DNA from: Parabacteroides faecis
GTDB taxonomy: Bacteria > Bacteroidota > Bacteroidia > Bacteroidales > Tannerellaceae
Reading direction: 5' to 3'
DNA: 64,000 nt
NCBI RefSeq assembly: GCF_014647375.1
Contig: NZ_BMPB01000012.1
Location: forward strand, 124,001-188,000
The translations under genes were made by a program, and so were the position numbers. Under the pieces are notes generated by a model. That model saw only the letters and a program-made list of their open reading frames with translations, had not been told where the DNA came from and did no database searches. Every line of letters begins with the position of its first letter. Within the stretch, counting starts at the first letter, position 1. This document shows, in pieces, positions 29,676 to 58,628 of the stretch.

Positions 29676-29726
29676 TTAAATAACCTCTCCGGAATTTTAT
29701 CTCTCCGGAAATAAAATAATTGTATT

Positions 29727-31840: not shown

Positions 31841-31842
31841 CC

Positions 31843-32239: not shown

Positions 32240-32261
32240 CACGATGTATAAGATGCAAAAA

Positions 32262-33245: not shown

Positions 33246-33352
33246 AACCTTTAAAATCAAATGCCTATGAAGTAACAGGAAAGAAAAAGTAATATTGTTT
33301 TAACCTTTTTATTAATTAATTTATTTCGATAATAATCTTAAAATAAGAGCTT

Positions 33353-36811: not shown

Positions 36812-36816
36812 TTAGT

Positions 36817-38658: not shown

Positions 38659-38668
38659 TTAAAAGGTA

Positions 38669-39415
38669 ATGAGAATGAAAAAGATAATATATAATATAGC
38701 CTCATTATTGTTGTTGGCTGTTTTTGCCACTAGTTGTGGTATGGATAATTACGATGCTCCCGAATCCAAGTTGTATGGCCAGATCCTGTACAAAGATGCC
38801 GGTGGCGTAGAACATCCTTTACAGGTGAAAGGTACCGGAGAAGCCATAAAACTCTCGTTATATCAGTATGGCTGGCAGTTATCAGATGGTATAACGTTGT
38901 ATGCCGACCAGGATGCTAAGTTTGAAGCCATTCTTTTTGACGGTGATTACCATATGATTACAAACAATAATAATGGTCCCTGGAAAACGGTACAGATATC
39001 TGAAGTAAAAAAAGATACAGTCGATTTTACACTGAAGGGTAGTACCGAAGTCAAGATCTATGTGACTCCTTATTTTATGATAGAAAATGCTGCAATCAGT
39101 CTGAATGGAACTAATTTATCGGCTACCTGTGCTGTAAAACAGATTATTTCTGATGCAGCGATAAATACGCAAAGTGTGTTTATTAGTTCTACCCGGTTTG
39201 TAGATGAGCAGACGAATTTCGCACGTATGGACTATTCTGAAGATAAGTCTGCCGGGAATAAAAACTTCTCATTCGCGATAACCGATGCATCACAGCTAAA
39301 ATCTTTGGAGAATGCAAAGAATCGTACAGGAAAAGTGTATGCTCGTATAGGTATTAAGGCAGAAGGAGCTGACCAGTTTATTTATTCGGAGGTCTTCGAA
39401 CTTGCTGTAAAATAA
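38669..39415 (+). CDS. DUF3823-type surface lipoprotein
   Basis: A 248-residue lipoprotein, lipobox FATSC, made of two beta-sandwich domains: residues about 25-130 (the DUF3823 N-terminal part with YGQILYKDAGG and DGDYHMITNNNNGPW) and 130-248. Such proteins often follow SusD in PULs and help hold the glycan at the surface. The start could also be ATG 38675 (MKKIIYN). It is 10 bases after SusD and is the last gene before a terminator. Confidence 0.75.
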   Translation: MRMKKIIYNIASLLLLAVFATSCGMDNYDAPESKLYGQILYKDAGGVEHPLQVKGTGEAIKLSLYQYGWQLSDGITLYADQDAKFEAILFDGDYHMITNNNNGPWKTVQISEVKKDTVDFTLKGSTEVKIYVTPYFMIENAAISLNGTNLSATCAVKQIISDAAINTQSVFISSTRFVDEQTNFARMDYSEDKSAGNKNFSFAITDASQLKSLENAKNRTGKVYARIGIKAEGADQFIYSEVFELAVK

Positions 39416-39430
39416 ATTGCTTTGTAGGAG

Positions 39431-39465
39431 GGGTGTGTCATTAGATAATGATGCACCCTTTTTTT
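39431..39465 (+). terminator. Terminator after SusCD operon
   Basis: GGGTGTGTCATT pairs with AATGATGCACCC (two G-T pairs), loop AGAT, then seven T. The remainder to 39645 is AT-rich and presumably carries the GH2 promoter, but I see no clear consensus. Confidence 0.9.
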
Positions 39466-39645
39466 ATTATGACCTCAAAATATATAGTTATGAAAGTACA
39501 TGCCTTTGGCTATTTATATTTTTCAATATAGAAATATTTATACAATGATATAGAAAGTGGGATTTACTTATTAATTTTGACCCATTGAACTTTCAGGCAA
39601 TTATCTCATTCTAGATCTCATTTACTTATATTAAATAACAATATC

Positions 39646-41472
39646 ATGAAAAAAGTTGTGTTTATTTGCTTTCTCTTCTGTTTCTTTTTAGGGGGAGGGA
39701 TTACTATGAAAGGGCAAAGCCCGAAAAAGTTTACATTACCAACTCCCTGGACCGATAAAGCATTGGAAGTTGCTGTTCCTTTGCCGGAATATCCGCGGCC
39801 ACAAATGGTGAGGACGGAGTGGTTGAATTTGAATGGTGTATGGGATTATATGGGTGGAAAAGACTTACAGGACCCGGTGTCGGCAACTTCTGTCCCGACA
39901 TTCCCCGTTAAGCCGGAACAAATCAGGGTTCCTTTCCCTCCGGAGGCAGAATTATCAGGTATTGCCCGCAAAGGGGGTACTTGTCTATGGTATCGTCGAA
40001 GTTTTACTATACCCGGAGCCTGGAAAGGAAAGAATGTCTTATTGAATTTTGGTGCGGTAGACCGTATTTCGACTGTGTTTGTGAATGGAAAGAAAGTGGG
40101 CACACATACAGGAGGATATGATGCTTTTACTTTTGATATTACTGCTTTTTTGAAGTCGGGTGAAAATACTCTTGTGGTCGGTGCCTATGATCCTAACGAT
40201 GGAAAGGCAGCATCCGGTAAAAACGGGCCGCGTGGCGATTATACTTTTACGTCCGGTATCTGGCAGACAGTCTGGTTAGAGCCTGTAGAAAAACAATATG
40301 TTTCTCGGATCAAGCTGATCCCCGATCTGAAGAACAACCGTTTGGAGGTGCTTGTTAACACAGATAATGACGGGTTAAAAGTTTCAGCAGTAGCAAAAGA
40401 TGGTGGAAAGGAAATAGCGAAAGCGGAAGGAACCGTTAATGGTAAGTTTTATATTCCCATACAGAACCCTCGTCTCTGGACTCCTGAAGATCCTTTTTTG
40501 TATGATTTAAAGTTACAGCTGAAGAATACGAAAGGTAAAGTAGTGGATGAAGTCGATTCTTATTTTGGAATGCGCTCCGTTTCTTTAGGAAAGGTGGATG
40601 GAGTAAACCGCCCTTTATTGAACGGTAAGTTTGTTTTTCAAATAGGGTTGCTGGATCAGGGATATTGGCCGGATGGTATTTTTACGGCTCCGACGGATGA
40701 AGCATTGCTGTATGATATAGAATTAGCCAAACGGGCCGGTTTTAACGTGATCCGTAAGCATATAAAAGTGGAACCGCAGCGTTGGTATTATCATTGTGAC
40801 CGCCTGGGATTGATGGTCTGGCAGGATATGCCTAATCTTTGGGAACCGGATGGTACCGATTCTGTTGCTGTACGTAAGCAGTTCCGCGAAGAATTGAAAG
40901 TAATGATCGATCAGCATATCAGTTCACCTTCCATTGTGATGTGGGTTCCTTTTAATGAAAACTGGGGAGCGTTCGAGGTTACTGATATAACAGCCTGGGT
41001 GAAAAAGTATGATCCGAGCCGCCTGGTCAATGGCCTGTCCGGTTATAATTATGCTCCGGGTTACCGGCCGGCCTATGGCGATCCGGGTAATGGTGATTTC
41101 GTCGACATGCATCATTACGGCAAAATAGAGCCGAAGGCAATGCCTCGTCCGGATGAGAAAAGAGCTGCGTCTCTCGGTGAGTTCGGAGGGAAAGGATTAT
41201 TTGTCAGGGATCATTTATGGCCTGTAAGGAATGATGCTTATGAAATGATGTTGAACAAAGAGGTACTGACCGATACATATATACTTATGCTTAACGAATT
41301 GGAGCAAATGATTAAATACTTTGGCTTGAGTACGGCTATTTACACGCAGACGACGGATGTGGAGCACGAAATAAACGGGTTGGTCACTTATGATCGTTGG
41401 GTTGAGAAGATGAATCTGGATAAGGTTAAACAAATCAACCGGGAGGTAATAGAAGGTACGCGGCAGAAATAA
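39646..41472 (+). CDS. GH2-family glycoside hydrolase
   Basis: A 608-residue secreted enzyme: signal peptide to about residue 24, sugar-binding jelly roll ([43 protein letters not shown]), immunoglobulin-like domain and TIM barrel. Likely acid/base Glu lies in [12 protein letters not shown] and nucleophile Glu in SLGEFGG. The family covers beta-galactosidase, beta-glucuronidase, and arabinopyranosidase activities and specificity cannot be set. It is transcribed alone from its own promoter region and converges with the GH43 gene at 41600. Confidence 0.85.
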
Positions 41473-41599: not shown

Positions 41600-42592
41600 T
41601 TAGAATACAGGGATTTCAGCCTCCAGTGAGGGGGTAGAGCCGGTTACCTCCGGCCAGTCGTTTACCCATCTGACCTGATCGAGCATCAGAACACGTCCGG
41701 TAGGATTTTCTTTACTCACCGCATGATAAAGCATCCAGTCGTTTCCGGCTTTGTCAGTCACTATTTCCGAGTTATGACCCGTACCGACAAAAGCCTCATT
41801 TCCGCGAATCAGTATCTCATGATGGTTTTCCATCATCGGTTGCCCCTTTTTGTCCACATAAGGACCGAACAGGTTTTCTGAACGGCCGACTACGGTTGTA
41901 TAGGTGCTTTTTAATCCTTCGCAGCAACTGCCGATAGAGGCGAACAGGTAATAATATTTGCCACGTTTATGAATATAAGTTCCTTCATAAGCTGTACCGG
42001 CTACCTGTTTTTTCTCTGCTCCTTCCTTCAGAGTTAGTCCGTCGTCTGACAACTCTATCCCGTAAATTCCCCGGAAGCTTCCCCAGAACATGTACTTTTT
42101 GCCATTCTCTTCGATGTAATACTGGTCGATGGAGTTTTGCACACCTATCGTATTGCTCCTGAACATCATCCCCCGGTCGGTAAAAGGCCCCTCCGGTTTG
42201 TCGGCAGTTGCGACTCCGATACCGCAGGTCCATTCTCCACCCCAGACGGACATGGAGTAATATAAAACGTATTGCCCGTTGATATAATTGATATCAGGTG
42301 CCCACAGACCGCCTTTAGGCTCGAAAGTCGGACGGGTTTCGTCTGTAAAGGCAGTACCTACTTCTTCCCAGTCTACCAGGTTTCTGGAACGGTGGATAGG
42401 AAGATTACGGATATTCTCCGTTGCATACACGTAAAAGTAACCGTCATCGGCTTTGATGAGGCTGGGGTCCGGAAGACTGTAATCGATGACAGGATTCCTA
42501 TAGGTCTTATTTTCTGTTTGTAGCGGCTTATCGGCCAGACAGGCTGTAAGCGATGCGATCCCGAATAAGGATATAAAAAATAATTTTCTCAT
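41600..42592 (-). CDS. GH43-family arabinan-type hydrolase (lipoprotein)
   Basis: A 330-residue lipoprotein with lipobox LTAC and a five-blade propeller. GH43 residues: Asp in LPDPSLIKADDG, Asp in NSIDQYYIEENG, Glu in TAYEGTYIHKRG. The layout with WAPDINYINGQYVLYYS resembles endo-arabinanases and arabinofuranosidases. It is the last gene of the minus-strand cluster. About 20% shorter or longer relatives exist, so length is ordinary. Confidence 0.85.
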   Translation of the reverse strand: MRKLFFISLFGIASLTACLADKPLQTENKTYRNPVIDYSLPDPSLIKADDGYFYVYATENIRNLPIHRSRNLVDWEEVGTAFTDETRPTFEPKGGLWAPDINYINGQYVLYYSMSVWGGEWTCGIGVATADKPEGPFTDRGMMFRSNTIGVQNSIDQYYIEENGKKYMFWGSFRGIYGIELSDDGLTLKEGAEKKQVAGTAYEGTYIHKRGKYYYLFASIGSCCEGLKSTYTTVVGRSENLFGPYVDKKGQPMMENHHEILIRGNEAFVGTGHNSEIVTDKAGNDWMLYHAVSKENPTGRVLMLDQVRWVNDWPEVTGSTPSLEAEIPVF

Positions 42593-42642
42593 ATAGCTGT
42601 TGTCTGAATGATTGTTTGAATAACAACGAATTAGAAAGTGCC

Positions 42643-43524
42643 TTAATGAAACGAACCGGTATTTTCATCCAGGCTGAATACGGAAGACATGGTTTGTATC
42701 CCTTCCTGATCCTTTAATGTACATAGAACGTTCTTATCCCTGTCTACCAGGAACAGATGATCCCGTTTTTCCGGATTTACATGCCCGACCCAGTTGGTGA
42801 AGAGCAAGCGCCCGTCAGGGAAATATTGCATGCCTCCCAGAAACTTTAAAGGCTCTCCGGGAATGTCCTTGTTCGATATTTCCCATACGGTGTTGCCTTT
42901 TTTGTCTAATTCGACAATGCGGGGATTCTGTGTCTTATCGGCTACGGCGACCAGTGTGTGGCCGTTCGGCAGCCGGATCACAGAATGGGGACCGCCGGGG
43001 ACCTGTACCTGCCAGACCACTTCTCCTTTTGAATTGTATTCTTTGACGTATTCCCCTCCGTAATGCGCAACGAGATAATTACCATTATCCAGTTTGCGGG
43101 CATTACGCATAAAGGCAAATGTTCCGTCTGAGACACCTTCCGGCAGGATGCATACCTCACTTACGATTTTCCCCCCGGGAGAAACTTCCAGTAAGCGTCC
43201 GGCATTGCATTCACCGATAAAAGTATTCCCGTTTTTCAGACGCTGGCAGGCGAAGACGGGACTTTCCGAAGCATAATAAAAGACGGTATCGTTTTGCCGG
43301 GTCACTTCCAGCACTCCTTTGCCAACCGAAAACAATAAGTTCCCATTCGGAAGTACCCAGAGATCATTCGATTCCGGAGCCTCATGTTGCCAGACGATCT
43401 TGTTGTTTTCCATAATGAAAACGATCCCCTGGGAGTAATCGGCTCCGGCGAAGTTCCCGCATTGTGCCAATACATTAAAGCAGTGGATGCAGGAAAGAAA
43501 AAGGATATAAGTAAAATGTCTCAT
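42643..43524 (-). CDS. Secreted beta-propeller protein (unknown)
   Basis: A 293-residue exported protein with repeated blades such as NDLWVLPNGNLLFS, RLKNGNTFIGEC, KLDNGNYLVAHYG, RLPNGHTLVAVA and YFPDGRLLFTNW, a PQQ-like or arylsulfotransferase-like propeller. The function is not known; such modules may bind sugar or scaffold others. It lies 11 bases after the cytochrome-domain gene at 43536-45332 and is probably translated together with it. Confidence 0.6.
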   Translation of the reverse strand: MRHFTYILFLSCIHCFNVLAQCGNFAGADYSQGIVFIMENNKIVWQHEAPESNDLWVLPNGNLLFSVGKGVLEVTRQNDTVFYYASESPVFACQRLKNGNTFIGECNAGRLLEVSPGGKIVSEVCILPEGVSDGTFAFMRNARKLDNGNYLVAHYGGEYVKEYNSKGEVVWQVQVPGGPHSVIRLPNGHTLVAVADKTQNPRIVELDKKGNTVWEISNKDIPGEPLKFLGGMQYFPDGRLLFTNWVGHVNPEKRDHLFLVDRDKNVLCTLKDQEGIQTMSSVFSLDENTGSFH

Positions 43525-43535
43525 AATGTTGTTTC

Positions 43536-45332
43536 TTAAAGAGATAATACGTATTCTGCCAGCTCGTTCAGTTCGTTTTCCGACAGTGTTTCTGCGGGGC
43601 CATGCACTTTCAGCATTTCTTGCATGGTGTAGCTGCGCCCGTCATACAGGTAAGGAGCTGTTCTCCATACTTCGTTCAAGGCGGGAACATCCATTTTTAC
43701 GTTCTTATCCGGCCCGTTCGTCCAGTTTACTTTGTATTGTTTCATATCCGTATAATAAGTACCCGAATGACAAGACGCACAGTTTTTCTCGAAATGTACC
43801 TTCCCTTTTTGGGCAGCTTCAGATAAATTACCGTTTACCAGGTAAGGACTCGGAACCGGTGACAATGACTTCAGGTACACGTCGATAGCCGGAGCTATTT
43901 CTTCGGTCGAGGCAGCAAATAAGATATACTTGATACCTGAGATGACAGCCGTTTCTGCATCTTTACGAATACCGGAAACCATACAGGGAGGAGTCTGGTG
44001 GGATAAAACCAATGTCTTGGTATTCTTAGGATTCCCCATGCCGTCGTTCAGCAAATCCCAGTTCAGGCCGTCCATGCGGGCATCGTTGGGATGGCAACTG
44101 GCACAGCTCTGCCATTCCTGGAAGCCGATGGAAGCATCGTGGAAATACATATCGCCTTTCCCTTTTTGAGTGGATGCGAGCGAGGTACCCAATGAGGTAG
44201 AAACCATATCTTTGCCGCTTCCGTTGAAGGCAACCAGTTCTCCGGTATAGTAATTCGCCGTATAGACTTTATCCGGTGTGACGTACAAGGCACGGGGACC
44301 TTTCCCCTGCGTTTTGTAGAAATCGCGGATGCCGTATAAGAAACCTGCATCATCTAGGATATGCGCATAATCTTTGGTTGAAGGAGTTACTTTTTCGCCG
44401 TCTTTTGCCCGTGCCAAGCGGTCATGCAATGAGGTTCTGTCTACACATACCAGTTCGTGAGTTCCGGAGACAGAGATCCATATTTTACTGTCATCCGGCG
44501 AAACGACAACGTTCCACGGATTGGAGGCGCCTTTCTGCGGAGTGTCCAACAGGATCGTGTTTTCCACTTCCTGTGTATGCAGATTGATGACGGACAGGAC
44601 ATTCGTACTCATCCATCCCCGGTCTACCTGGTTGGTCGGGAGCTGGTAGCGTGCCAGCAGATGAACGGCATACGCATAATCGCCTTTGCTGTCCGTAGCC
44701 AATGCTTTTACATCTGTGGAACCGTTTGGAAGCTGTAAGCGTTTCACTACCTTTTTATTGTTTACATCGACAATATCCAACTGGCAGGCAATCGGATAAG
44801 TGAGCGATGACATTTCCGGCAGGTTGTTGGCAACCAGCAATAAGCTGTCGCCAGCGAATGAAACGATGTCTACCGGTTCGCGGCCTACGGTAATCCGGTT
44901 CAACACCTCTTTGGTTTCCGGAGATACTTCCCACAGTTCGTTGTTGAAGCGTTGGGTTGTCCATAAAGAACCTGTCTGCCGGTTGAACAAGAGGGCAGAA
45001 GGGGTGTGTCCCAAGGCTGTTTGAGAGATAACGGACAGGTCTTTTCCGTTCAGCTCACATAAAGAACCCCCAACGCCGTCGCACACCACCCAGATATGCC
45101 GGTTGGGCGTTTCCGTCAGGTCGTTGGCGGCGGTTGGCAATGTCACTTTGATACCTGTATTCTTTAAACGGGTATCGATGAGGCATATTTCTTTTTTCTC
45201 CCGGTTTGTCACCAGAAGTCCGCCTTCTTCTCCGGCACTCCATATATGATCCGGAGCAAAAACATCATTCCCGTTGCATCCTGTCAGGGCAGCCAGGCAC
45301 AGACAGGCTATATAAGTCCAGTTTATTTTCAT
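43536..45332 (-). CDS. Lipoprotein with YncE-like propeller and c-type haem domain
   Basis: A 598-residue protein: lipobox LTGCNG, a propeller over residues 30-390 (TLGHTPSALLFNRQTGS, VSPDDSKIWISVSG) and a C-terminal domain with two haem-binding CXXCH motifs (SCASCHPND and NCASCHSG). The end PYLYDGRSYTMQEML resembles di-haem cytochrome c peroxidase/MauG-like domains. It may oxidise or transfer electrons from a carbohydrate substrate in the periplasm. It is unusual in a gut anaerobe. Its substrate is unknown. Confidence 0.7.
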   Translation of the reverse strand: MKINWTYIACLCLAALTGCNGNDVFAPDHIWSAGEEGGLLVTNREKKEICLIDTRLKNTGIKVTLPTAANDLTETPNRHIWVVCDGVGGSLCELNGKDLSVISQTALGHTPSALLFNRQTGSLWTTQRFNNELWEVSPETKEVLNRITVGREPVDIVSFAGDSLLLVANNLPEMSSLTYPIACQLDIVDVNNKKVVKRLQLPNGSTDVKALATDSKGDYAYAVHLLARYQLPTNQVDRGWMSTNVLSVINLHTQEVENTILLDTPQKGASNPWNVVVSPDDSKIWISVSGTHELVCVDRTSLHDRLARAKDGEKVTPSTKDYAHILDDAGFLYGIRDFYKTQGKGPRALYVTPDKVYTANYYTGELVAFNGSGKDMVSTSLGTSLASTQKGKGDMYFHDASIGFQEWQSCASCHPNDARMDGLNWDLLNDGMGNPKNTKTLVLSHQTPPCMVSGIRKDAETAVISGIKYILFAASTEEIAPAIDVYLKSLSPVPSPYLVNGNLSEAAQKGKVHFEKNCASCHSGTYYTDMKQYKVNWTNGPDKNVKMDVPALNEVWRTAPYLYDGRSYTMQEMLKVHGPAETLSENELNELAEYVLSL

Positions 45333-45337
45333 AATCT

Positions 45338-47821
45338 TTACTTCTTTGCTTTTAGCGATTGAAGATACTGACGGATGTTTTCTTTCTCGGCAGCCCGGGA
45401 TGTTTCCCGCTTCTTCTCATAATACGTATAATAATCCTTCTCCTCCTGTGTCCAGTTGTTTGCTTCCCGGTAATCACCGATGAACGGTACGCACAGGTCG
45501 ATCCATAAAGCGATCGTTTCCATTTCTTCCTTGCTCAGGTTGCATCCGCCGTGCCCGTTTTCAAGCCGTTTGATCAGGTTGCTTGTGTTGGAACCGGCAA
45601 AATAAGGGGCGAGCAACGTCGGCTCGGACAGATTGCTTATCCAGTTTACTTCCGGGTGATGAGCATCTCCCTGCCAAGAGTCGTTGTCTCTCGTCATCTG
45701 GCGGGCATGCGTCAGGCTCAGATAAGAGTCTGAGAACTTGCGCTTGGTCTGCTGGTCGACTACTTTCAACTCGCCTTTCAGGCTCAGTTTGCTTTTCACC
45801 CCGTCATGGCAGGATATGCAATGAGCATCCCAGATAGGCTGCACCTCTTTGATGTAGCTGAAGCAACGGTCGCCAATTCCTTCCGGCTCGATCTTTTGGA
45901 TACCGGTATTCATCGCCATAGATACCGGATGCGAAGCTACCGGAACCGTATTTTTATGTTCATGGCATCCTACGCAACTTTGTGTTTCTCCCGGCTGCAA
46001 AGTCGACCAGCTACGCATGGTTTGTACAACGCGGTTGTTTTCATCCAATGCCTGGAAGTATAAAGGTGTGCGGCAAGGCACTTTGAAGAAGGCCGAACCG
46101 TCCGGCTGCACATCTATCGTTCCCAGTATCCGTTTTACGTCCCAGCTGGCATTGCCGACTCCTACCGGGGAAAAGGCATGTCCGCCGCCCCCCGCATCAA
46201 AGCCATAAGCGGCACCGATACTGGCTACGCGGTAGATGGGTTCGACAATCCGCAGTTTCTTGATCGTTCCCGGCTCGATGCCTTTCAAACCGTTTCCTTC
46301 GTAAATGTTCTGCATATAGTAGACACCTTCCTCTTTCGTGTAGTCCACATTGTTTACACGCTCGAAAGGACGTTCACGTTCGGCTAGCAGAACTGGCTGA
46401 TTGCAGGATATGCTGGCATCCGAAACCAATAGTTCGCGTTCTCCGTCCGGTGTCATCCAGTAGATACCAAATTCCATCGGATGGCCTACGTGGTAGCCTA
46501 GCGGCGTATAGGAAATCAGAAACTCTTCTTCATTCAAAGGGTAAGGGTGTTGGAACTGGTCGCCGAATTGTCCGTAGGTATCGACTTTTACAGCTTCCGG
46601 CCTGTGGAGCGGGGCAACCAACATGACACCTTCGTTCTCATCGCGTCCGGCTTCAGGGTCGATGATGCATAATTTACCGTGTTGAGGAGTGTGATGACCG
46701 AGGATGGTTGCCATCACCTTTCGTGTTCCGGGGATTTGGCGGGTATGTGTGACCGTGGTAGGGAAGAAGCTGTTTCCTCCGTAATACTCAGCCTGTCCGG
46801 TACCGTCCGGATTCATCTGGCAGAGCGGTTGCATAAATACCTGGCCACGGTCGTTGTATTCCCAACGGGTATAGACAACGCGGCCGTCGTCGAGCAGTGT
46901 CGGATTGGAGGTATGCACCTGGTCGAATCCGACCTGCCGCATATAACGACCTTCGCGGTCGCAAAGATAGAGGTTGCTGACTTCTACGGTCCAGCAGTCT
47001 ACCGCACTACCGTTGCGGGTCGAGTTGAACAGGATATTTTCGTCCGGCAGATAGATCGGCTCTATATCGGCAAATCCCAGGCCGGAAGTGATCTGTTTCA
47101 GTTTCCGGGAGGGCATTTCTATTTCGTACAGGTGGAAGTCGTCTTCTTTCTGTGACTTCTTCCATGCAAATAATATATGCTTTCCGTCGAAATGTACGTC
47201 CGGATCACGGAAAACGCCGGCTGTATCTTTCAGCAAGGTTTCTTCTTTTGCCCAGATACCATCCATCTTAAAAGATGCCAATTCTCCCCCGGCAAAGAAA
47301 TTACATTCCGCACGGGCATCGGACAAACCTTCCGTATAGGCAAAGAAAGACGGACGCAGCGTACGGAATTTGGTAAACACAACTTCGGGAGTGTTCTTTA
47401 TAAATGAAGCCAGCCGCTGCTCTCTTCTTTTCGTACAGGCGTCGAGATAGGAAGACAAAGCCTGTGTGATGCTTTCCGGGGTATCGGTTACTTTTGTTTC
47501 CAGCTGTAGTTTGTGCAGGCGTTCGCTGATCTGACCGGAAAAAGTCCCGTCAAACCATTTCACATTGCTTCCATCCTGTAGCCACCAGTCGTAATAGACG
47601 GGATAGTGATGATATAAATGCAGATGCGCCTCCCGGATCAGGGTGGCGGTACTGTCTTTTGAGACTACCCCTTCGGTAGCCTTTATTTTATTGAATCGGT
47701 CTTGTATTTCGGCTATAAATTCCTGCTTATCGGCGGGATGGTAATCTTTATACTCGTTGTTCTGACAGGCTGCCAGTACAACGAGTATAAGTCCCATTCC
47801 TATTTTGTGTAAGTTATTCAT
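45338..47821 (-). CDS. HzsA-related lipoprotein with c-type haem motifs
   Basis: An 827-residue lipoprotein; the true start at 47821 gives MNNLHKIG and lipobox LAAC. Upstream is a purine-rich AAGGGAGTAAC. The middle is a PD40/TolB-like propeller (LPDENILFNSTRNGSAVDCWT, GFADIEPIYLPDENI). The C-terminal part has CVGCH and CISCH haem-binding motifs and an EANNWTQEEKDYY end. The layout recalls hydrazine synthase alpha-related proteins of Bacteroidetes, a name from similarity, not function. It stands 5 bases before the next haem protein gene, so they probably work together. Confidence 0.65.
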   Translation of the reverse strand: MNNLHKIGMGLILVVLAACQNNEYKDYHPADKQEFIAEIQDRFNKIKATEGVVSKDSTATLIREAHLHLYHHYPVYYDWWLQDGSNVKWFDGTFSGQISERLHKLQLETKVTDTPESITQALSSYLDACTKRREQRLASFIKNTPEVVFTKFRTLRPSFFAYTEGLSDARAECNFFAGGELASFKMDGIWAKEETLLKDTAGVFRDPDVHFDGKHILFAWKKSQKEDDFHLYEIEMPSRKLKQITSGLGFADIEPIYLPDENILFNSTRNGSAVDCWTVEVSNLYLCDREGRYMRQVGFDQVHTSNPTLLDDGRVVYTRWEYNDRGQVFMQPLCQMNPDGTGQAEYYGGNSFFPTTVTHTRQIPGTRKVMATILGHHTPQHGKLCIIDPEAGRDENEGVMLVAPLHRPEAVKVDTYGQFGDQFQHPYPLNEEEFLISYTPLGYHVGHPMEFGIYWMTPDGERELLVSDASISCNQPVLLAERERPFERVNNVDYTKEEGVYYMQNIYEGNGLKGIEPGTIKKLRIVEPIYRVASIGAAYGFDAGGGGHAFSPVGVGNASWDVKRILGTIDVQPDGSAFFKVPCRTPLYFQALDENNRVVQTMRSWSTLQPGETQSCVGCHEHKNTVPVASHPVSMAMNTGIQKIEPEGIGDRCFSYIKEVQPIWDAHCISCHDGVKSKLSLKGELKVVDQQTKRKFSDSYLSLTHARQMTRDNDSWQGDAHHPEVNWISNLSEPTLLAPYFAGSNTSNLIKRLENGHGGCNLSKEEMETIALWIDLCVPFIGDYREANNWTQEEKDYYTYYEKKRETSRAAEKENIRQYLQSLKAKK

Positions 47822-47887
47822 GTTACTCCCTTCTTTATTAATAATCCGGTTACCGGAATAAACTGAAACGATGCTTTGTTTCAATTT

Positions 47888-47953
47888 GTTTCTTCTGGAT
47901 GAAACTGTTGTTTCTCTTAGGTGAAACTAATGTTTCATAAGGAAGAAACTTTG
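47888..47953. repeat. 22-bp tandem hairpin repeat at DeoC end
   Basis: Three units each hold GTTTC, eight variable bases and GAAAC. GTTTC falls at 47888, 47910 and 47932, GAAAC at 47901, 47923 and 47945, an exact 22-bp period. The last unit lies in the end of the DeoC coding region. Possible attenuator. Confidence 0.75.
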
Positions 47954-48630
47954 TAAGCCTCTACGATTGAGACTCCGCTAGACGTACCGATGCGGGTAGC
48001 GCCTGCCTTAATCATGGCTAATGCCGTATCCAGGTCGCGGATGCCGCCTGCTGCTTTCACTCCGATTTCCGGACCAACTACCCGGCGCATCAGGGCAACG
48101 TCTTCTACGGTGGCTCCGGCTGTGCCGAAACCGGTCGAAGTCTTCACGAAATCGACACCTGCTTCTTTGGCGATTTGGCAGACTGTCTCCTTTTCTGCAT
48201 CAGACAGGTAGCAGGTTTCCAGAATCACTTTACAGATCACGCCTGCCGGTTTGCAGATGGCTACCATATCTTCGATTTCTTTCTTTACGATGTCCAATCT
48301 TCCTTTTTGCAGAGCGCGGACGTTAATTACCGTATCGATTTCCGTTGCTCCTTTTTCGATGGCATCGCGTGTTTCAAACGCTTTGCATTCGGTGGTCGTC
48401 TGGCCTAACGGAAATCCGATGGCTGCACCGACGCGAACAGGCGAACCTTCCAGCAGTTTGACGCAGGTTTCTACTTCTGCCGGATTGATGGCTACCATTG
48501 CAAATTCATATTTCCGTGCTTCGGCACACAGTTTTTCGATGTTCTCTGCCGTGCCGAAAGGTTTCAGGAAGGTATGATCGATCATTCCTGCCAATTTTTC
48601 TGCTGTTAAGTTTGCGATTATTTCGTTCAT
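47935..48630 (-). CDS. deoC: Deoxyribose-phosphate aldolase-like enzyme
   Basis: A 231-residue class I aldolase. The Schiff-base lysine is Lys163 in DFVKTSTGFG, with Asp99 in EIDTVIN and Lys192 in GVKAAGGIRD. DeoC splits 2-deoxyribose-5-phosphate into glyceraldehyde-3-phosphate and acetaldehyde. In this cluster it lies after a dehydrogenase and kinase, which points to a related sugar-phosphate aldolase for an unusual pentose or polyol rather than nucleoside salvage. It is 12 bases after the dehydrogenase gene. Confidence 0.9.
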   Translation of the reverse strand: MNEIIANLTAEKLAGMIDHTFLKPFGTAENIEKLCAEARKYEFAMVAINPAEVETCVKLLEGSPVRVGAAIGFPLGQTTTECKAFETRDAIEKGATEIDTVINVRALQKGRLDIVKKEIEDMVAICKPAGVICKVILETCYLSDAEKETVCQIAKEAGVDFVKTSTGFGTAGATVEDVALMRRVVGPEIGVKAAGGIRDLDTALAMIKAGATRIGTSSGVSIVEAYKVSSL

Positions 48631-48642
48631 GATAAATGATGT

Positions 48643-49689
48643 TTAGAATGTTAATACTGTTTTTATTACTTCGTTACGTTTTACGGCTTCCAGAGCCTCG
48701 TTTATTTGTCCAATCTTAAAGCGATGGGAGATAAAGTCGGAGGCAGACAGACGGCCTTCACGTATCCATCCGGTCAGTGCGATCATGGCCCGTTTCTCTT
48801 CCGAGCGGGTCGGCCAGCGGTGGATGTAGAGGTTGAAGTTGTATGGAGCCTGATCTAAATCGATTGTCGGATTTTTGGTCATTACACCGTAGACGCAAAT
48901 GTCGCCGGCCATTTTGATAAGCGGTAGAGCCGAGTTAACGATGGATGGCAAACCTACTGCGTCGATGATCGTATCGTACGAACGGTTGGCAGCGGCTATA
49001 AATTCAGGGGTGGCGATTTCTGCCGGAGTATATCCGTTGTCTGCTCCCATCTGTTTGGCCAGTTCCAGCTTGGCGGGAAGCATATCGACGATATCCACCT
49101 GTCCTAAGCCGAACAACTTGCCCAGTTTGACGAAACTCAACCCGACGGGACCGGCACCGAATACCATTACTTTCTTGCCCGGAGCCAGACGGAAGTCTTT
49201 AAATGCGCCGACTATCTCACGCCAGGTACAAGCGATTACCGCTTCTTCCGGCTGTATATCGGCAGGTACGGCATTCTGAATTTCAAAGCTGTCCCAACAA
49301 CCCTGTTCCGGTGTGGCGAGGCCTTCTTCCTGTAACACTTCGAAATCGTTCACGACAACATATTCGCTGAAGCCTCCCCAGGCACTGTTCAATCCAGGAG
49401 TTGTAAAAGTAGCATTCAACCCGCCGATGGCCCTGTCACCCACACGGAAGTTGCGAACTTTAGCCCCGACTTCCACTACGATACCAACATTCTCATGTCC
49501 CAGAGCCATTGGGAACTGGTCTGCTCCGGGGAAATGCCCGGAAATCAGTTTACTGTCGGTTGCATTACACAAGGCTACCATCTCGGTTTTCACCAAAGCC
49601 TGATACGGCGTGATAGCCGGTATATCTATCTCCCGGATTTCTACTACGCCGGGAGCTGTTGCGATTACGCTTTTCATTTGTCCTTTCAT
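48643..49689 (-). CDS. Zinc-type medium-chain dehydrogenase
   Basis: A 348-residue alcohol/polyol dehydrogenase. Catalytic zinc ligands fit CNATDSKL and ALGHENVG near residues 41 and 65. The Rossmann signature is VFGAGPVGLSFVKLGKLFG. The usual four-cysteine structural zinc lobe is missing. It may oxidise a hydroxyl of the pathway sugar with NAD(P). An in-frame ATG five codons downstream gives an alternative start. It is separated by 8 bp from the kinase gene. Confidence 0.85.
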   Translation of the reverse strand: MKGQMKSVIATAPGVVEIREIDIPAITPYQALVKTEMVALCNATDSKLISGHFPGADQFPMALGHENVGIVVEVGAKVRNFRVGDRAIGGLNATFTTPGLNSAWGGFSEYVVVNDFEVLQEEGLATPEQGCWDSFEIQNAVPADIQPEEAVIACTWREIVGAFKDFRLAPGKKVMVFGAGPVGLSFVKLGKLFGLGQVDIVDMLPAKLELAKQMGADNGYTPAEIATPEFIAAANRSYDTIIDAVGLPSIVNSALPLIKMAGDICVYGVMTKNPTIDLDQAPYNFNLYIHRWPTRSEEKRAMIALTGWIREGRLSASDFISHRFKIGQINEALEAVKRNEVIKTVLTF

Positions 49690-49697
49690 ATTCTTTC

Positions 49698-51221
49698 TTA
49701 TAGGTTTAAATTCGATAAGTCGGTATAGACCTCTTTCAAATGGTCGTATGTTTTATCGAATACTCCGATTAATTCCTGATATTTCTCCACATTGGCAGGG
49801 ATAGGGGTGATCTTCTTATCGATATGGATAAAGCGGTCGGTTACGCTGAAGTCCTTGAACAGTCCGGCTCCGATACCGGCCAGGATAGCGGCACCCATCG
49901 AGGTGGCTTCTTCCAGATAGTTCGGTATTTTTATTTCTGTCTGGTAGATGTCAGCCATCATTTGCTGCCAGATCGGATTTTTGGCACAGCCGCCTATCAC
50001 GGTCATATTCTCAACCGGCACGTGGTTACGGAATATATTCACGATAAGTCCCAGGTTCAAGGTGATACCTTCCATGACGGAACGAAGCATATCTCCATGC
50101 GTATGTCCTACGGTCAGTCCGATAAAGGCTCCTTTGGCATTTACGTTCCAGCGTGGGGAACGTTCGCCCATAAGGTAGGGTAGGAACAGCAGCTTGTTGG
50201 AACCTATCGGTGATTTCCGGATTTGTTCGTCGATCAGTTCGTATACATTTCCTTTCCTTTGTCTGGCTTCTTCCTGTTCCTGTTGGCACAGTTGCTGAAC
50301 CATCCAGTTATAGGAAGCTCCTGCCGTCTGCATGGTGCCGGACGGATGAAGCATGCCCGGAACGACATGCGCCCAGTTCATCGTGCGCCGCTGTTCGTCG
50401 ACAACAGGTTTTTCTACAGTCAGGGCTACCCATGAGGAAGATCCCAGGTAGTTGTAAGATGTTCCCGGAGCTACGCAGCCAACGCCTACTCCGGCACAAC
50501 TGCCGTCGCCGCCTCCGCAAACGACCGGTGTCCCTTTCCGGAGTCCGGTAGCTTTGGCTGCTTCTTCCGTTACCTCGCCTATCACGTCGATGGAGGAACG
50601 TACTTCCGGGAACAGCGAAATATCCAGTCCGGCTGCCTCGATGATCTCTTCACTCCAGGCCCAGCGATTCAGGTCGTAGGCATTCGTACCGGATGCATCC
50701 GACGGATCGGTGGCAATCGTACCGCAAAGACGGAAATTGATATAATCCTTAGCATTGAGCATCTTGTAAGTATTCGCGAATACTTCCGGCAGATGTTTCC
50801 GTATCCACATGAGCTTTTCTATCGAATAAGAGGCGCTGATGCGATGGCCTGTTATCTCGTAGAAATGAAGCGGATCGATCTTTCCGGCCAGGAACGCTTC
50901 CTCCTCCTGCGAACGCTGATCGCAATACAACAGGTGGGGATAAAGCGGATTTCCTTTTTTATCGACGCATAAACAGCCCATCATTTGTCCGCTCAGGGCA
51001 ACCCCGGCAATATCATCCGGCGAAACGATTTGCAGTAGCGCATGGGTCGTTTCAACGATCGCTTTCCACCAATCCGCAGGATTTTGTTCCGCCCGGTTGC
51101 CGGCAGCGTAATCGGTACGGTAAGAGGCTACATAGGAGGCGACCAGCATACCTTCTTCGTTGAATAAAGTCGCCTTGTTGCCACTCGTGCCTAAGTCGTG
51201 TGCAATAACGTATTTTGACAT
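49698..51221 (-). CDS. FGGY-family carbohydrate kinase (xylulokinase-like)
   Basis: A 507-residue sugar kinase using ATP to phosphorylate a pentulose or polyol. Features are the N-terminal AHDLGTSGNKATLFNEEG, GVALSGQMMG, catalytic-region YCDQRSQEE, DPSDASGTNAYDL, and the C-terminal ATP motif TVIGGCAKNPIWQQMMADI. It is closest to xylulokinase in general layout, but a different ketose or alditol is possible. The membrane-pair genes directly upstream suggest import of the same substrate. Confidence 0.85.
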   Translation of the reverse strand: MSKYVIAHDLGTSGNKATLFNEEGMLVASYVASYRTDYAAGNRAEQNPADWWKAIVETTHALLQIVSPDDIAGVALSGQMMGCLCVDKKGNPLYPHLLYCDQRSQEEEAFLAGKIDPLHFYEITGHRISASYSIEKLMWIRKHLPEVFANTYKMLNAKDYINFRLCGTIATDPSDASGTNAYDLNRWAWSEEIIEAAGLDISLFPEVRSSIDVIGEVTEEAAKATGLRKGTPVVCGGGDGSCAGVGVGCVAPGTSYNYLGSSSWVALTVEKPVVDEQRRTMNWAHVVPGMLHPSGTMQTAGASYNWMVQQLCQQEQEEARQRKGNVYELIDEQIRKSPIGSNKLLFLPYLMGERSPRWNVNAKGAFIGLTVGHTHGDMLRSVMEGITLNLGLIVNIFRNHVPVENMTVIGGCAKNPIWQQMMADIYQTEIKIPNYLEEATSMGAAILAGIGAGLFKDFSVTDRFIHIDKKITPIPANVEKYQELIGVFDKTYDHLKEVYTDLSNLNL

Positions 51222-51238
51222 GGTCTATAGAATATTAT

Positions 51239-51718
51239 TTATAATGCAGCATTCGTATATCCGGTCAGTCCGACCAGAATACCTCCAACGATCCCTCCGG
51301 CTATGATAACCACCCAGCGCGGGAATGCTTCTTTCAATAAGCCCAGACGCTGGCCTTTCGGGGCGCAGAGCGTATCGCAAACCACAAATCCCATCGCAAT
51401 GGCCCAACCCATATCTACCCAGGGGGCACTTCCGCGTGCACCTTGATGGATCAGGCTGAATTGCATCGGCAGTCCGTTTGCATCCGGAGCCAGCCCGGTG
51501 GAGAAACCGAAGCCGGGCAATTTATGGTTGACGAGCCAGAACGTTCCTATGATTAATGCGGCGGCGATAAAGCCTCCCTTTGCTCCAAAGTCCCTGACCA
51601 GTTTAGGCCAGCAGAATATAACCGTGAATGTGACGGCGAAAGAACCGAATATGCTGGTGATGATACCGGCATTGTACATGCCGAACAGTTCATTGTAAGT
51701 CTGTAACCACTCGCTCAT
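51239..51718 (-). CDS. Small multi-pass membrane protein, paralogue of its neighbour
   Basis: A 159-residue membrane protein with four or five helices. The segment GSFAVTFTVIFCWPKLVRDF followed by GGFIAAALIIGTFWLVNHK matches the neighbouring 127-residue protein, as does the later PWVDMGWAIAMGF. The two genes overlap by 4 bp. From memory they resemble the Lin0368-type putative glycerol transporter subunits of Listeria, where they lie beside similar catabolic genes. I cannot verify this. Probably subunit of a small solute transporter or channel. Confidence 0.5.
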   Translation of the reverse strand: MSEWLQTYNELFGMYNAGIITSIFGSFAVTFTVIFCWPKLVRDFGAKGGFIAAALIIGTFWLVNHKLPGFGFSTGLAPDANGLPMQFSLIHQGARGSAPWVDMGWAIAMGFVVCDTLCAPKGQRLGLLKEAFPRWVVIIAGGIVGGILVGLTGYTNAAL

Positions 51719-52098
51719 ACTGCCTCCTCCTCTTTTGACAGGCGGTTACCGCACGAACGCATCGCCCAGATAGTCAGACCGGCCAAAGCTCCCCCGATCA
51801 GACAACAAAGCAGGGTAGGAGCCGCCAGAAAGAATTGTGTGATGTCGCCCTGGAAACGGACGATCCCCCAGGCTATACCGGCGGAACCGATACACCATCC
51901 CTGGTCCAGCCATATCTTTCCTTCCGGGTTTAATATGGCTCCGTTGTAATGGTTCATGTACCACATGATCCCGATGATAAGTGTAGCCGCCAGCCATCCT
52001 CCCATGAGGCCGTAGGTCTTCCAAAGCTCCGGCCAGATGCCGAAAGCAAAACCTCCGCATATGGCCGATCCGGCAAATGTAGATAAGTAGTGTTTCAT
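51715..52098 (-). CDS. Small multi-pass membrane protein, paralogue of its neighbour
   Basis: A 127-residue membrane protein with about four helices. Aligned with the neighbour: AFGIWPELWKTYGLMGGWLAA and TLIIGIMWYMNHYNG, then IWLDQGWCIGSAGIAWG, then GGALAGLTIW. It overlaps the 159-residue gene by 4 bp, so the two are translated together and likely form a two-subunit membrane complex. It precedes the kinase and follows the SMP-30-like gene by 18 bp. Confidence 0.5.
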   Translation of the reverse strand: MKHYLSTFAGSAICGGFAFGIWPELWKTYGLMGGWLAATLIIGIMWYMNHYNGAILNPEGKIWLDQGWCIGSAGIAWGIVRFQGDITQFFLAAPTLLCCLIGGALAGLTIWAMRSCGNRLSKEEEAV

Positions 52099-52116
52099 GA
52101 TATTATGGTTAATCTG

Positions 52117-53205
52117 TTAGTTAAGTTGCAATTTAGCTAGTGTAAAAGGCTTGTCGTGTCCGGTATTTACTTTGTCGGGGCCTGTTACGATATCGAAGCA
52201 GGAAACGATTACCTGGCCGTTCCATACGATCGGTTCTCCCGGCTGGTCGAGTCCGCCGTCGCTTCCGTCGCAATCCGGACTCTGGGCGATACGCTGAATA
52301 CGACCGTCTTTATCAATGCGGGCGACAGCATTCTCGGAGAAATCGGCTACCCAGATATTTCCGTCGTCATCGATACACATCCCGTCGGTGGTACGTAACT
52401 GTGAAGGGTCCTGTGCCCAGATCTCATTACTGGTTACATTGCTGTTGCCATCCATTGTTATCCGGTGGATAGTACCGTCACCGAAGTTGCCTACATATAA
52501 ATAACCTTCCTTATCGAACACGATGCCATCCAGTCCGTACTGTACATCTTTGTTCTTGGTAATGACGGTGGTGATCAGGTTTTTATCTTCCCGGGTATTG
52601 GTGATCTTTATATTTTTATCATTCTTATCGAAACAATATACACCGCTGACCAGCAAACCGGACGGGTCCTGGATGGAAGACAAGGAGCTTTGGGTTACAT
52701 ATAATTTCCCGTTCCTGAAGCGGATTCCGTTCGGATGCTCCATGCCGGAAGCTACTTCAATAACTTCTTTCAGCTTATACCCGTCTAATTTTAAACAGAG
52801 TATTCTCCCTTTGTTTTTGGCCTTTTCGGCTCCGCTCCATCCCTGGTTGTCGCAAATGAAAAGGTTACCCTCGTCATCGAAAGTGATTCCCATGGGTGCG
52901 GCCCACCCCGTTTCCGGTAATACGGGCACATCCATCCATTTACTGATTTTTCCCTCTTTGGTAATCTGCATCAGGCAGGCCGGTTTTGACAGATCTGCAA
53001 AATTGGGACAAGCCAGGATGAGGTCACCGTTCGGGGCAATAGCCATACCGTCGGGTGTCGGGCAATCGTCCGGCAATATCATAAACAGTTCGCTTTTTTG
53101 CATGGTGGTAACATCGGCTACCGTAGCGGCATTCTTTTGAGAAGTCCTGTGGCAAGCACCGAATAAGACCGATAATAAGATAGACATTAAAAACACATTT
53201 TTCAT
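52117..53205 (-). CDS. SMP-30/gluconolactonase-like propeller lipoprotein
   Basis: A 362-residue lipoprotein; the start at 53205 gives MKNVFLM and lipobox LFGAC. The six-blade propeller has repeated motifs such as PDGMAIAPNGDLILAC, PMGITFDDEGNLFICDN, HPNGIRFRNGKLYVTQ and GLDGIVFDKEGYLYVGN, typical of SMP-30 lactonases. It may hydrolyse a sugar lactone or bind a sugar in the periplasm. It is the first gene of the minus-strand catabolic cluster, with an ECF-like promoter just upstream. An ATG at 53241 would begin inside that element. Confidence 0.75.
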   Translation of the reverse strand: MKNVFLMSILLSVLFGACHRTSQKNAATVADVTTMQKSELFMILPDDCPTPDGMAIAPNGDLILACPNFADLSKPACLMQITKEGKISKWMDVPVLPETGWAAPMGITFDDEGNLFICDNQGWSGAEKAKNKGRILCLKLDGYKLKEVIEVASGMEHPNGIRFRNGKLYVTQSSLSSIQDPSGLLVSGVYCFDKNDKNIKITNTREDKNLITTVITKNKDVQYGLDGIVFDKEGYLYVGNFGDGTIHRITMDGNSNVTSNEIWAQDPSQLRTTDGMCIDDDGNIWVADFSENAVARIDKDGRIQRIAQSPDCDGSDGGLDQPGEPIVWNGQVIVSCFDIVTGPDKVNTGHDKPFTLAKLQLN

Positions 53206-53233
53206 GATATATAGATTTGTTGATATATTAGTC

Positions 53234-53263
53234 AGACTCAAAAAGGAGGGTTATCCCTTAAAG
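53234..53263 (-). promoter_or_regulatory. Putative ECF-dependent promoter, diverged copy 3
   Basis: Read on the minus strand it keeps the right-hand block CCTTTTTGAGTCT and most of the G-rich block; 22 of 30 bases match copy 1. It lies 29 bases before the SMP-30-like start. Confidence 0.5.
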
Positions 53264-53919: not shown

Positions 53920-55566
53920 TTATTTCTGAAATATTTCCGGATATTTCCGAATGAAATACGTAGGGGTACAACTCCAGGCATGGCAGTAACTATTAACCGG
54001 ATAGAAGTTGTAGGGTGACAGGTATTCATTCCGGGGATCATAGACTTCCCAGAAGGTATCAGCCCCTTTGTGGATCATTCCGCCCCAGTATTCCGCCATT
54101 TCTTTTTTGGCTTCTTCTTTCAATCCCGATTTGATCAGGGCTTCTATATAATAATGGAAGAGGTAAGGTGCTCCCGGCGTACATACATTTTCTGTCGTTT
54201 TCAAAGCCCTTAATGCCCTTTGGGCTTCTTTTTGTGTGGGTACTTCGCTTAATACCATCCAGATCTGGGAGGCGTACGATACCTGGTCGTTCAGTATGCC
54301 GGTGAACAGTCCTGTTTTTGGATTATAATAATGCTTGCGGACTGCTTTTTTCATTTTTTTGATAAGCTCCGGTAATTGCGATACCTCATTTTCTTTGTTC
54401 AGCAGTTGTGCTAGTTCGTAGGCTTCCCGGAATGCGAAAATGGTAACGCCATGGAATGCTACTTCCCGATGTAACCCATCTTTCCAGTCGAAGAATATCC
54501 ACCATTCACGGGAGGCTTGCTCGTAATTCATCATTCCGTCGTCCTGTAGATATTTGTAGGCCGATTCCAGTTGTTTTTTAACGACGGGCCACAGGTCTTC
54601 CGCTGTCTCCCTGTCTCCGGTTTCCAGTAAGTAGTCTTTGAGGGTCACGCCAAACAGGAAAGAATAGTCATATAGATGTTGTTTGGCCTGGGGCTTCGGT
54701 TCCGGAGCTTCAAAAACAGTCGCATTCAGTTTTCCGTTGTGTTCGCTTAAACTGGCAAGCAGATACAGGCATCGTTTGGTCAGGTCGTACTGTTTGAAAG
54801 AATAATTGTTTGCCAATGCTTCCAGATACAGGTCTCCCAGCCATAAGCGCTGGTCTCTTTTAGGACCGTCTTCATAAACGGTTTGCATACATTCTTTTAA
54901 TGTATTCAGGCTAACCCTGTCTATATCCTTGAACAGTTGAGGTGTGGTTGCCGATAACTCTTCAGGTGTGTTGACAGCCGAAGTCACCGCATCACATTTC
55001 ATTCCGGAAATACAGAAATCATAACCGGGAGGTGTGGCGATCAACTCTATTTTTACATATCTGAAGGAGACGCGGCGGGGAATGGTCATTGTTGCAGGCA
55101 TCGTCATCACGGTAACAACCTCATCCTGTAACCATGCACGGCTGAGTCCTCCCTGATAGGGATCGAAAGGTGTGACCAGTTCCGACGGTACTTCTCCGAA
55201 TGTCAGCTTGAAACGGGCAGGTGCGTCGGATTCGGCTCTCAACAAGTCTGTACTGAAGCTGAAACTTCCTGTTATATGTTCCCCAAAGTCTACGATAACG
55301 GACTTTGTCTCTTTAAACGAACTGTCGTATAGTTTGTGTATAGGGGCAGTCTGAACTGCTTTATATTGTTGAAATGCTGTTTCATCTTTAACTATATTGA
55401 CCAGGGCGACAGGCTTTTTTTCGGTAACGGTCAGCCTTGGAATACTTTGTTTTGCTTTTTCAGCCCAGGAAGCACGTTGGGGTGCGTAAAAGTCTTGTCC
55501 GTAGGCTGTTATGAAACAACTGGTAAGTAAACAGTTTAAGAGAAGTCTTTTTAGGGTCGTTTTCAT
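53920..55566 (-). CDS. GH78-like alpha-L-rhamnosidase (short)
   Basis: A 548-residue secreted protein. The (alpha/alpha)6 catalytic core shows YEDGPKRDQRLWLGDLYLEA, REWWIFFDWKDGLHREVAFH, and GADTFWEVYDP, as in GH78. Family enzymes usually have about 900 residues with several N-terminal beta domains; here only a reduced N-terminus with one beta part remains. The start at 55566 gives MKTTLKRL and a signal peptide; an upstream ATG would add 11 odd residues. It likely removes terminal L-rhamnose, with altered specificity. Confidence 0.7.
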   Translation of the reverse strand: MKTTLKRLLLNCLLTSCFITAYGQDFYAPQRASWAEKAKQSIPRLTVTEKKPVALVNIVKDETAFQQYKAVQTAPIHKLYDSSFKETKSVIVDFGEHITGSFSFSTDLLRAESDAPARFKLTFGEVPSELVTPFDPYQGGLSRAWLQDEVVTVMTMPATMTIPRRVSFRYVKIELIATPPGYDFCISGMKCDAVTSAVNTPEELSATTPQLFKDIDRVSLNTLKECMQTVYEDGPKRDQRLWLGDLYLEALANNYSFKQYDLTKRCLYLLASLSEHNGKLNATVFEAPEPKPQAKQHLYDYSFLFGVTLKDYLLETGDRETAEDLWPVVKKQLESAYKYLQDDGMMNYEQASREWWIFFDWKDGLHREVAFHGVTIFAFREAYELAQLLNKENEVSQLPELIKKMKKAVRKHYYNPKTGLFTGILNDQVSYASQIWMVLSEVPTQKEAQRALRALKTTENVCTPGAPYLFHYYIEALIKSGLKEEAKKEMAEYWGGMIHKGADTFWEVYDPRNEYLSPYNFYPVNSYCHAWSCTPTYFIRKYPEIFQK

Positions 55567-55803
55567 GTTTCTGTAGATTATGAGTAAGTGTTTCGTCAAA
55601 AGTATTCTTTCTTGAAATAGCGGATAAAATTACCGTTTATCAGGTGGATGCATGTTGTATTATTGATATTAAATGTTACAAAAATGACACGGTGATAAAG
55701 TTTGATTGATTTTATCCTTTTCGTGTTCGTATAGCGTATTTATTATAAAGTTTTTTTCTACATTTACAAATCTAACTTTTTGCTAATCAATACACATGTG
55801 AAT

Positions 55804-58611: not shown

Positions 58612-58628
58612 TAATATGTATAGATGAT

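Follow-up and report, generated by a model that had tools for sequence, protein, structure and literature searches.

A hydrazine synthase-like pair of c-haem proteins in a putative sugar-catabolic operon of Parabacteroides and Bacteroides

What are two exported c-type haem proteins doing among the genes of an apparent sugar-degrading pathway in a gut anaerobe? The question is raised by ten minus-strand open reading frames (ORFs) of Parabacteroides faecis that run from position 53241 to 41600 of the window, by which we mean the whole 64,000-nucleotide stretch analyzed (124001-188000 on contig C12 of a 6.66-Mb genome). On the evidence of sequence and modeled fold, the two haem proteins are remote homologues of anammox hydrazine synthase (HZS) alpha and fused beta-gamma (PDB 5c2v). 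We give an even chance to the reading that these genes, as one operon, serve the catabolism of a small sugar-like compound, and that one step takes place outside the inner membrane and is carried out by a c-haem complex of the HZS fold. A pentose-sized sugar, deoxysugar or polyol is the probable substrate.

The alpha-like protein (827 residues) contains the HZS alpha middle domain PF18582 (3.5e-35) and matches 5c2v_A at 2.4e-13 as a single sequence and at 5.8e-30 as a 20-row profile. As a single sequence, the betagamma-like protein (598 residues) matches 5c2v_C (2e-12) and 5c2v_B (4.9e-10); as a 21-row profile it matches them at 4.9e-26 and 5.8e-26, respectively, the best profile match being the YVTN propeller 1l0q (2.2e-33). 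In NCBIfam it scores best against the HZS beta-gamma fusion (9.7e-18, well short of the cut-off), and its gamma part additionally matches di-haem peroxidases and MauG-like enzymes. The rows of alignments A3 and A4 were picked by hand from the loci then available. The predicted folds, with mean predicted local distance difference test (pLDDT) scores of 76.2 for the alpha-like and 76.4 for the betagamma-like protein, have as their best Foldseek matches 5c2v_A (E 1.4e-29, template modeling (TM) score 0.60) and 5c2v_B (E 1.9e-21, TM 0.83 on the target). Each protein carries two CxxCH motifs, making four c-haem motifs in all, and the lipobox-like N termini (VLAACQ and LTGCNG, read by eye from the sequence) suggest exported lipoproteins. 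The initial annotation had recognized c-type haem proteins here, as the two motifs in each confirm, and had missed both their kinship to HZS and the separate CcsBA cluster described below.

Is the pair, then, a hydrazine synthase? Alpha, beta and gamma parts with four c-haem motifs are all present. Neither protein comes near its curated NCBIfam HZS cut-off (66.9 against 800 bits for alpha and 63.7 against 1250 bits for beta-gamma). The residues specific to HZS are set out by Hagglund et al. 2025 (PMC12758564; here and below, the statements refer to the part of that text available to us), where non-anammox homologues are reported to be without them. At the place of alpha Tyr591, the fourth residue past the CxxCH His, the window protein has Asn, and 42 other alpha rows have Asn (31), Leu (10) or Ser (1), with Tyr in none. 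The gamma Cys165 place holds Leu or Val in single-sequence and profile alignments, and residues 451-517 of the betagamma-like protein include no Cys, so this residue is absent. Gamma His144 aligns with Val452 in the single-sequence alignment and falls within an insert in the profile alignment; across A4 its place is taken by V, I or A in 18 of 21 rows, the other three, from Rikenellaceae, being ambiguous. Haem alpha-II of HZS has alpha His772 as its distal ligand; an invariant His, within GHGG, is offset from that place by one residue in the alignment. No FG-GAP/CRTAC1 gene, a feature of HZS-like clades I-III, occurs among the ten cluster and ten flanking proteins scanned. Because alpha Tyr591 and gamma Cys165 (and, less securely, gamma His144) are missing, the window pair is by its sequence HZS-like, not an HZS.

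In the order of transcription, the ten genes of the run are as follows.

52117..53205, minus strand: SMP-30/gluconolactonase-like (SGL) beta-propeller lipoprotein (PF08450, 1.5e-19); the ORF opens at TTG 53241, and the ATG start at 53205 is read from the sequence
51715..52098, minus strand: DUF6905 small membrane protein a (PF21846, 97.8 bits, cut-off 27)
51239..51718, minus strand: DUF6905 small membrane protein b (PF21846, 83.9 bits, cut-off 27), with a 4-base overlap with a
49698..51221, minus strand: FGGY sugar kinase, xylulokinase-like (TIGR01312, 395.8 bits, cut-off 380.25)
48643..49689, minus strand: medium-chain alcohol/polyol dehydrogenase of the catalytic-zinc type, without the structural-zinc Cys residues (PF08240/PF00107)
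47935..48630, minus strand: deoxyribose-phosphate aldolase (DERA, DeoC) (TIGR00126, 262.7 bits, cut-off 117.3)
45338..47821, minus strand: HZS-alpha-like lipoprotein, TolB-type propeller with CVGCH and CISCH (PF18582, 3.5e-35), with the ATG at 47821 likewise read from the sequence
43536..45332, minus strand: HZS-betagamma-fusion-like lipoprotein, YVTN propeller and di-haem domain with two CASCH motifs (profile matches 5c2v_C and 5c2v_B)
42643..43524, minus strand: exported Mala_s_1/arylsulfotransferase (ASST)-type beta-propeller (PF22701, 5.3e-15)
41600..42592, minus strand: accessory GH43 lipoprotein (PF04616, 4.1e-76)

With ATG starts assumed, no two neighbors lie more than 113 bases apart, and the closest overlap by 4 bases. 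Rfam and tRNA scans each gave 0 matches. Glycan-locus genes flank the operon on both sides (window 28719-41472 and 53920-61415), comprising GH43, GH127, FecR, SusC/SusD-type and GH2 genes, then GH78-type and GH106 alpha-rhamnosidase genes.

Whether these genes belong together can be judged from their recurrence. Searching named genomes with the alpha alignment gave 15 loci (L067-L081), some of which duplicate loci of the set L041-L046 (L042=L069, L043=L067, L044=L068, L045=L077, L046=L070). Gene maps were drawn with a simple longest-ORF script, in which ORFs shorter than 80-100 residues and unmatched ORFs shorter than 120-130 residues are not shown and some starts lie too early. The order DUF6905, kinase, dehydrogenase, DERA, alpha, betagamma, Mala_s_1 is kept in 11 of the 15 (L067-L074, L076-L078), with broken frames in some genes of L068, L077 and L078 and a single DUF6905 frame on the L076 map. 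These loci come from Parabacteroides, Tannerellaceae and Bacteroides, and the order is common to two families. The Mala_s_1 propeller adjoins betagamma in the same 11 loci, and in 11 loci the run opens with SGL, as a gene or as a domain (L067-L077, of which L075 is without the catabolic genes; L078 begins mid-run). SGL is free-standing in the window. In P. goldsteinii, P. gordonii and the Parabacteroides loci L041 and L046 it makes up the C-terminal part of a longer protein (about 1190 residues); in the single such fusion scanned (L041, 15444-18998), the remainder is a GtaA/DUF5127 region. In five of the six Bacteroides loci (L071-L074 and L078, not L076) the run extends into an FkbO/Hyg5 chorismatase-like gene (122.6 bits to TIGR04444 in L071, cut-off 325) and CcsBA, the latter split in two in L078.

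The cluster of ten ORFs proposed in the initial annotation is therefore borne out as tightly packed and on a single strand, and its order, conserved across two families, points to more than chance, with one correction to its membership. The core stands, and the GH43 gene lies outside it: present in L041, L044 (=L068) and L046 (=L070), it is absent from L042 (=L069), L043 (=L067), L045 (=L077), L071-L076 and L078. Neither P. goldsteinii nor P. gordonii nor any of the six Bacteroides loci has it beside the operon. In 11 of the 15 named loci the genes are not scattered, an outcome that the initial annotation had set as a refutation. Its view of the exported haem proteins and the cytoplasmic kinase, dehydrogenase and aldolase as one unit is supported, and the set recurs in other genomes, with a diverged form in a second cassette.

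What, then, might the cytoplasmic enzymes act on? The FGGY kinase passes the xylulokinase cut-off narrowly (395.8 against 380.25 bits), and in alignment with 2itm the His of its GQMHG motif, which we take to be the substrate His of xylulokinases, is replaced by Met. The same Met is found in 17 of 18 kinase rows (12 distinct loci), the remaining row being an 87-residue fragment without the motif. The dehydrogenase has been described from the outset as lacking structural zinc, and indeed it contains four Cys in total (41, 131, 154 and 265) and none within residues 42-130, where the site would presumably fall; LCNATD and GHE, which we regard as catalytic-type motifs, are in place. The aldolase carries EIDTVIN together with VKTSTG and KAAGGIR, presumably the catalytic Lys motifs of DERA, and each of the 17 window-type rows (12 distinct loci) has all three intact. 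An apiose-like substrate had also been proposed, and the Pfam and NCBIfam scans found no match to apiose-specific families among the ten proteins; apiose is rejected as the specific substrate since family matches give it no support.

The DUF6905 pair accounts for all PF21846 matches in the genome. Across the wider phylum the family matches in 5 of 395 genomes and exceeds the cut-off in one, the source genome itself. Outside Bacteroidota, in Listeria innocua and Enterococcus gilvus (L065 8515-10782, L066 8581-10836), dhaM and dhaK enclose two adjoining DUF6905 genes (119-132 bits, cut-off 27), and the same runs hold genes for triose-phosphate isomerase, RpiB, an FSA-type aldolase and transketolase. 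The window pair may import small ketoses or polyols. The gene pairs in dha runs are a lead, in their own right, to a small-ketose transporter.

A second cassette, on contig C6, repeats part of this arrangement on one strand: IclR, an alpha-like protein (787 residues), a short-chain dehydrogenase/reductase (SDR), DERA (189.3 bits, over the cut-off), an FGGY kinase that falls short of the xylulokinase cut-off (329.9 bits) and a cupin that resembles D-lyxose/D-mannose isomerase (7nzo, 1.8e-20) and has a lipobox-like N terminus. The best in-genome paralogues of the window alpha, DERA and kinase all lie here, at 34-39% identity (39% for the kinase). The margin over the next paralogue is small for alpha (346 against 325 bits) and large for the kinase (363 against 116); the DERA scores are 117 and 77. 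The third genomic DERA copy stands apart on contig C1, the other two being beside HZS-alpha. A quick alpha tree with long branches was used solely to sort the alphas into three types, and of ten second-type alpha loci, three (L085, L090 and L094) have DERA and kinase. Among the three second-type DERA rows, L090 departs from the strict first-Lys-motif pattern and L094 from the Asp-motif pattern. An iron-type alcohol dehydrogenase (ADH) occurs in L090 and L097, and in L090 it replaces the SDR beside the alpha-DERA-kinase trio; L094 is a 5.5-kb contig, and L097 was examined over 12 kb.

How would the haem be attached? A core cluster elsewhere in the source genome (G000:C2:34872-45989; L047 6873-17990) encodes IclR, betagamma, an FkbO/Hyg5 chorismatase-like protein, a cupin lipoprotein, an NPCBM/HZS-alpha/FGE fusion and CcsBA. 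Thirteen core loci were compared (L047 of the source genome and L049-L060). All of them keep IclR, betagamma, cupin and alpha in order, whereas the chorismatase-like gene is present in 11 (not L051 or L056) and CcsBA in 12 (not L060). In both core loci scanned (L047 and L049), NPCBM and FGE-sulfatase regions are joined to alpha in a single protein. The core cupin lipoprotein of L049 is Cys-rich past the lipobox, and the core cluster is commoner in the family than the window operon. CcsBA of the source genome, with both ResB and CcsA domains (L047 15546-17990), is full-length and apart from the window operon, and its sequence suggests that the core cluster supplies haem attachment. Since 117 of the 124 family genomes have ResB, the presence of CcsBA is not specific. 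The ccsA loci shown in the available part of PMC10434189 differ from those here.

The two haem proteins tend to occur together. Alpha is found in 65 of the 124 family genomes and betagamma in 63, in 12 of 16 genera: 60 genomes have both, 56 neither, five alpha only (G001, G085, G092, G098 and G118) and three betagamma only (G022, G077 and G086), making 116 of 124 concordant, with several of the discordant genomes being incomplete drafts. Of 39 genomes of the genus, 27 have both and 12 neither, and ten of ten further genomes, all selected for having alpha, have both. The source genome holds seven alpha-like and two betagamma-like genes, a ratio that fits the idea that several alphas may share few betagammas. 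Three of these alphas (L087-L089) adjoin, or lie within about 4 kb of, SusC/SusD-like genes, labels that rest on 22-30% BLAST identity to window proteins. Those three genes (L087 8215-11544 on C13, L088 8522-12511 on C3 and L089 9236-12697 on C6) encode proteins of 1109-1329 residues and have no adjoining betagamma gene. Just beyond the window on C12 (L048 5867-10074), an HZS-alpha-like gene (1108 residues) is followed by a Mala_s_1-like propeller, with an alpha-L-fucosidase-type gene nearby. In the wider phylum, the HZS-alpha domain matches in 17 of 395 genomes, 13 of them over the cut-off.

Homology, gene order, conservation, co-occurrence and the absence of HZS-specific residues are what the analysis shows. 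Beyond these we infer the following route, including its complex formation, location, redox direction, transport and every substrate. The alpha-like and betagamma-like lipoproteins would form one four-haem unit, with haem attached by CcsBA of the separate core cluster. This unit would oxidize, or less likely reduce, the compound; alpha would set the specificity, and the gamma part would hand the electrons onward. We lean slightly towards oxidation because a lactonase-like protein accompanies the haem pair, and the SGL protein may open a lactone. The DUF6905 pair would import the product of the haem step, the FGGY kinase would phosphorylate it, the dehydrogenase would adjust its oxidation state and DERA would split the phosphorylated product into glyceraldehyde-3-phosphate and an aldehyde of 2-3 carbons. 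The known activity of DERA suggests a deoxy-aldose-phosphate or close analogue as the last phosphorylated intermediate. 1-Deoxyxylulose, 2-deoxypentitols, ascorbate-type substrates and galactosyl polyols are candidates in thought only.

Several observations weigh against this scheme. Kinase and DERA are found in none of the 13 core loci, in none of the seven distant Bacteroidota alpha loci fetched (from 11 over the cut-off outside the source genome and one of the genus; mostly partial domain matches with one CxxCH) and, within the stretch fetched, in none of seven of the ten second-type alpha loci (L091-L093, L095-L098). The haem pair occurs without the catabolic genes in a Muribaculaceae locus (L075: SGL, alpha, betagamma, chorismatase-like and CcsBA) and alone in three Rikenellaceae/Alistipes loci (L079-L081). 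The di-haem part of betagamma is weakly predicted by AlphaFold2 (AF2), with low confidence. The co-occurrence of alpha and betagamma has P = 2.7e-25, which is not a true probability because the family genomes are related, and common descent within one order could hold neighbors together without a tight functional link.

The alternative that survives best, which we nonetheless consider unlikely, is that the HZS-like pair serves as a periplasmic redox unit of general use, whether a peroxidase, an electron-transfer complex or a protein-modifying complex like MauG, and only happens to stand in one operon with a sugar pathway. The likeness of the gamma part to di-haem peroxidases and MauG-like enzymes, the solitary pairs of Rikenellaceae and the core copy, which keeps company with IclR, chorismatase-like, cupin and CcsBA genes in place of kinase and DERA in all 13 loci, speak for it. 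Against it, the catalytic Trp of these enzymes, which sits at the gamma His144 place (PMC12758564), has no counterpart in the window protein, where residues 426-536 include no Trp; alpha stays beside kinase and DERA in two cassettes; and three source-genome alphas stand beside SusC/SusD-like genes of glycan loci. Quite improbable, in our estimation, is a conventional xylulokinase/DERA pathway that degrades D-xylulose, xylitol or deoxyribose, all common sugars, and to which the haem proteins are irrelevant. The kinase and aldolase do exceed their family cut-offs and the DERA motifs are intact, but the kinase motif departs from xylulokinase, two of the three DERA copies lie beside HZS-alpha with the third apart on C1, and the tight order with the haem genes extends across two families. 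A true hydrazine synthase or other nitrogen (nitric oxide, hydroxylamine) enzyme in a gut bacterium has alpha and beta-gamma homology and four haem motifs in its favor and is very improbable indeed, nitrogen chemistry being rejected on the missing HZS-specific residues (no Tyr at the alpha Tyr591 place in 42 of 42 rows, no gamma Cys165, and no His at the gamma His144 place in the single-sequence alignment, where the profile alignment has an insert) and on the carbohydrate genes that surround the pair.

A catabolic operon with an HZS-fold haem step is the reading we prefer, and if it is true, a haem-dependent step is added to carbohydrate use in gut anaerobes. More broadly, and with well under even confidence, gut Bacteroidales might use HZS-fold c-haem complexes as new periplasmic sugar/polyol redox enzymes, in which exchangeable alphas (of glycan loci and alpha-kinase-DERA cassettes) work with common betagamma partners and supply FGGY kinase and DERA with deoxy- or keto-sugars. 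HZS was earlier thought to be without homologues in other species, and no top structural match of HZS alpha had an experimentally confirmed function (PMC12758564). Here, a homologue adjoins enzymes of known chemistry (kinase, dehydrogenase and DERA) in named, culturable Bacteroides and Parabacteroides, so that a growth screen of deletion mutants could yield the first function for a non-anammox HZS-like complex. Such a function could hint at the chemistry of the fold before anammox.

How does this arrangement compare with known systems? The kinase of the deoxyribose operon is of the PfkB type. Like deoxyribose (DeoK-DeoC) and pentose (XylB) operons, the window operon contains DERA and an FGGY xylulokinase-like enzyme; unlike them, it combines an FGGY kinase with extra exported haem proteins. 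With anammox HZS (5c2v) the pair shares the alpha propeller with two c-haem motifs, the beta propeller and the di-haem gamma, and its fusion of beta and gamma is also found in HZS of Scalindua japonica (PMC12758564). It differs from anammox HZS in being without alpha Tyr591 and gamma Cys165, with gamma His144 not found, in its carbohydrate-gene operon and in its lipobox-like N termini. HZS-like alpha/betagamma pairs of clades I-IV were already described by Hagglund et al. 2025, and Bacteroidota are named there among betagamma homologues; the word "sugar" is absent from the main text, which describes no sugar cassette (PMC12758564). The window pair resembles these pairs in missing HZS residues, clades I-III in having the alpha gene upstream of a betagamma-fusion gene, and clade II in having two haem motifs in betagamma. 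It departs from clades I-III in that the window proteins scanned include no FG-GAP match, from clades II and III, for which loss of alpha-II is reported, in that its alpha keeps both haem motifs, and from the pairs of that study in its linkage to FGGY kinase, dehydrogenase and DERA (PMC12758564). Among the full texts of the open PMC library, no title links HZS-like pairs to sugar cassettes, Parabacteroides or DERA, and no paper was found on DUF6905 or "HzsA-related protein". The pairs themselves are known, and their link to a sugar cassette is, judged by titles in the open-access literature, apparently new.

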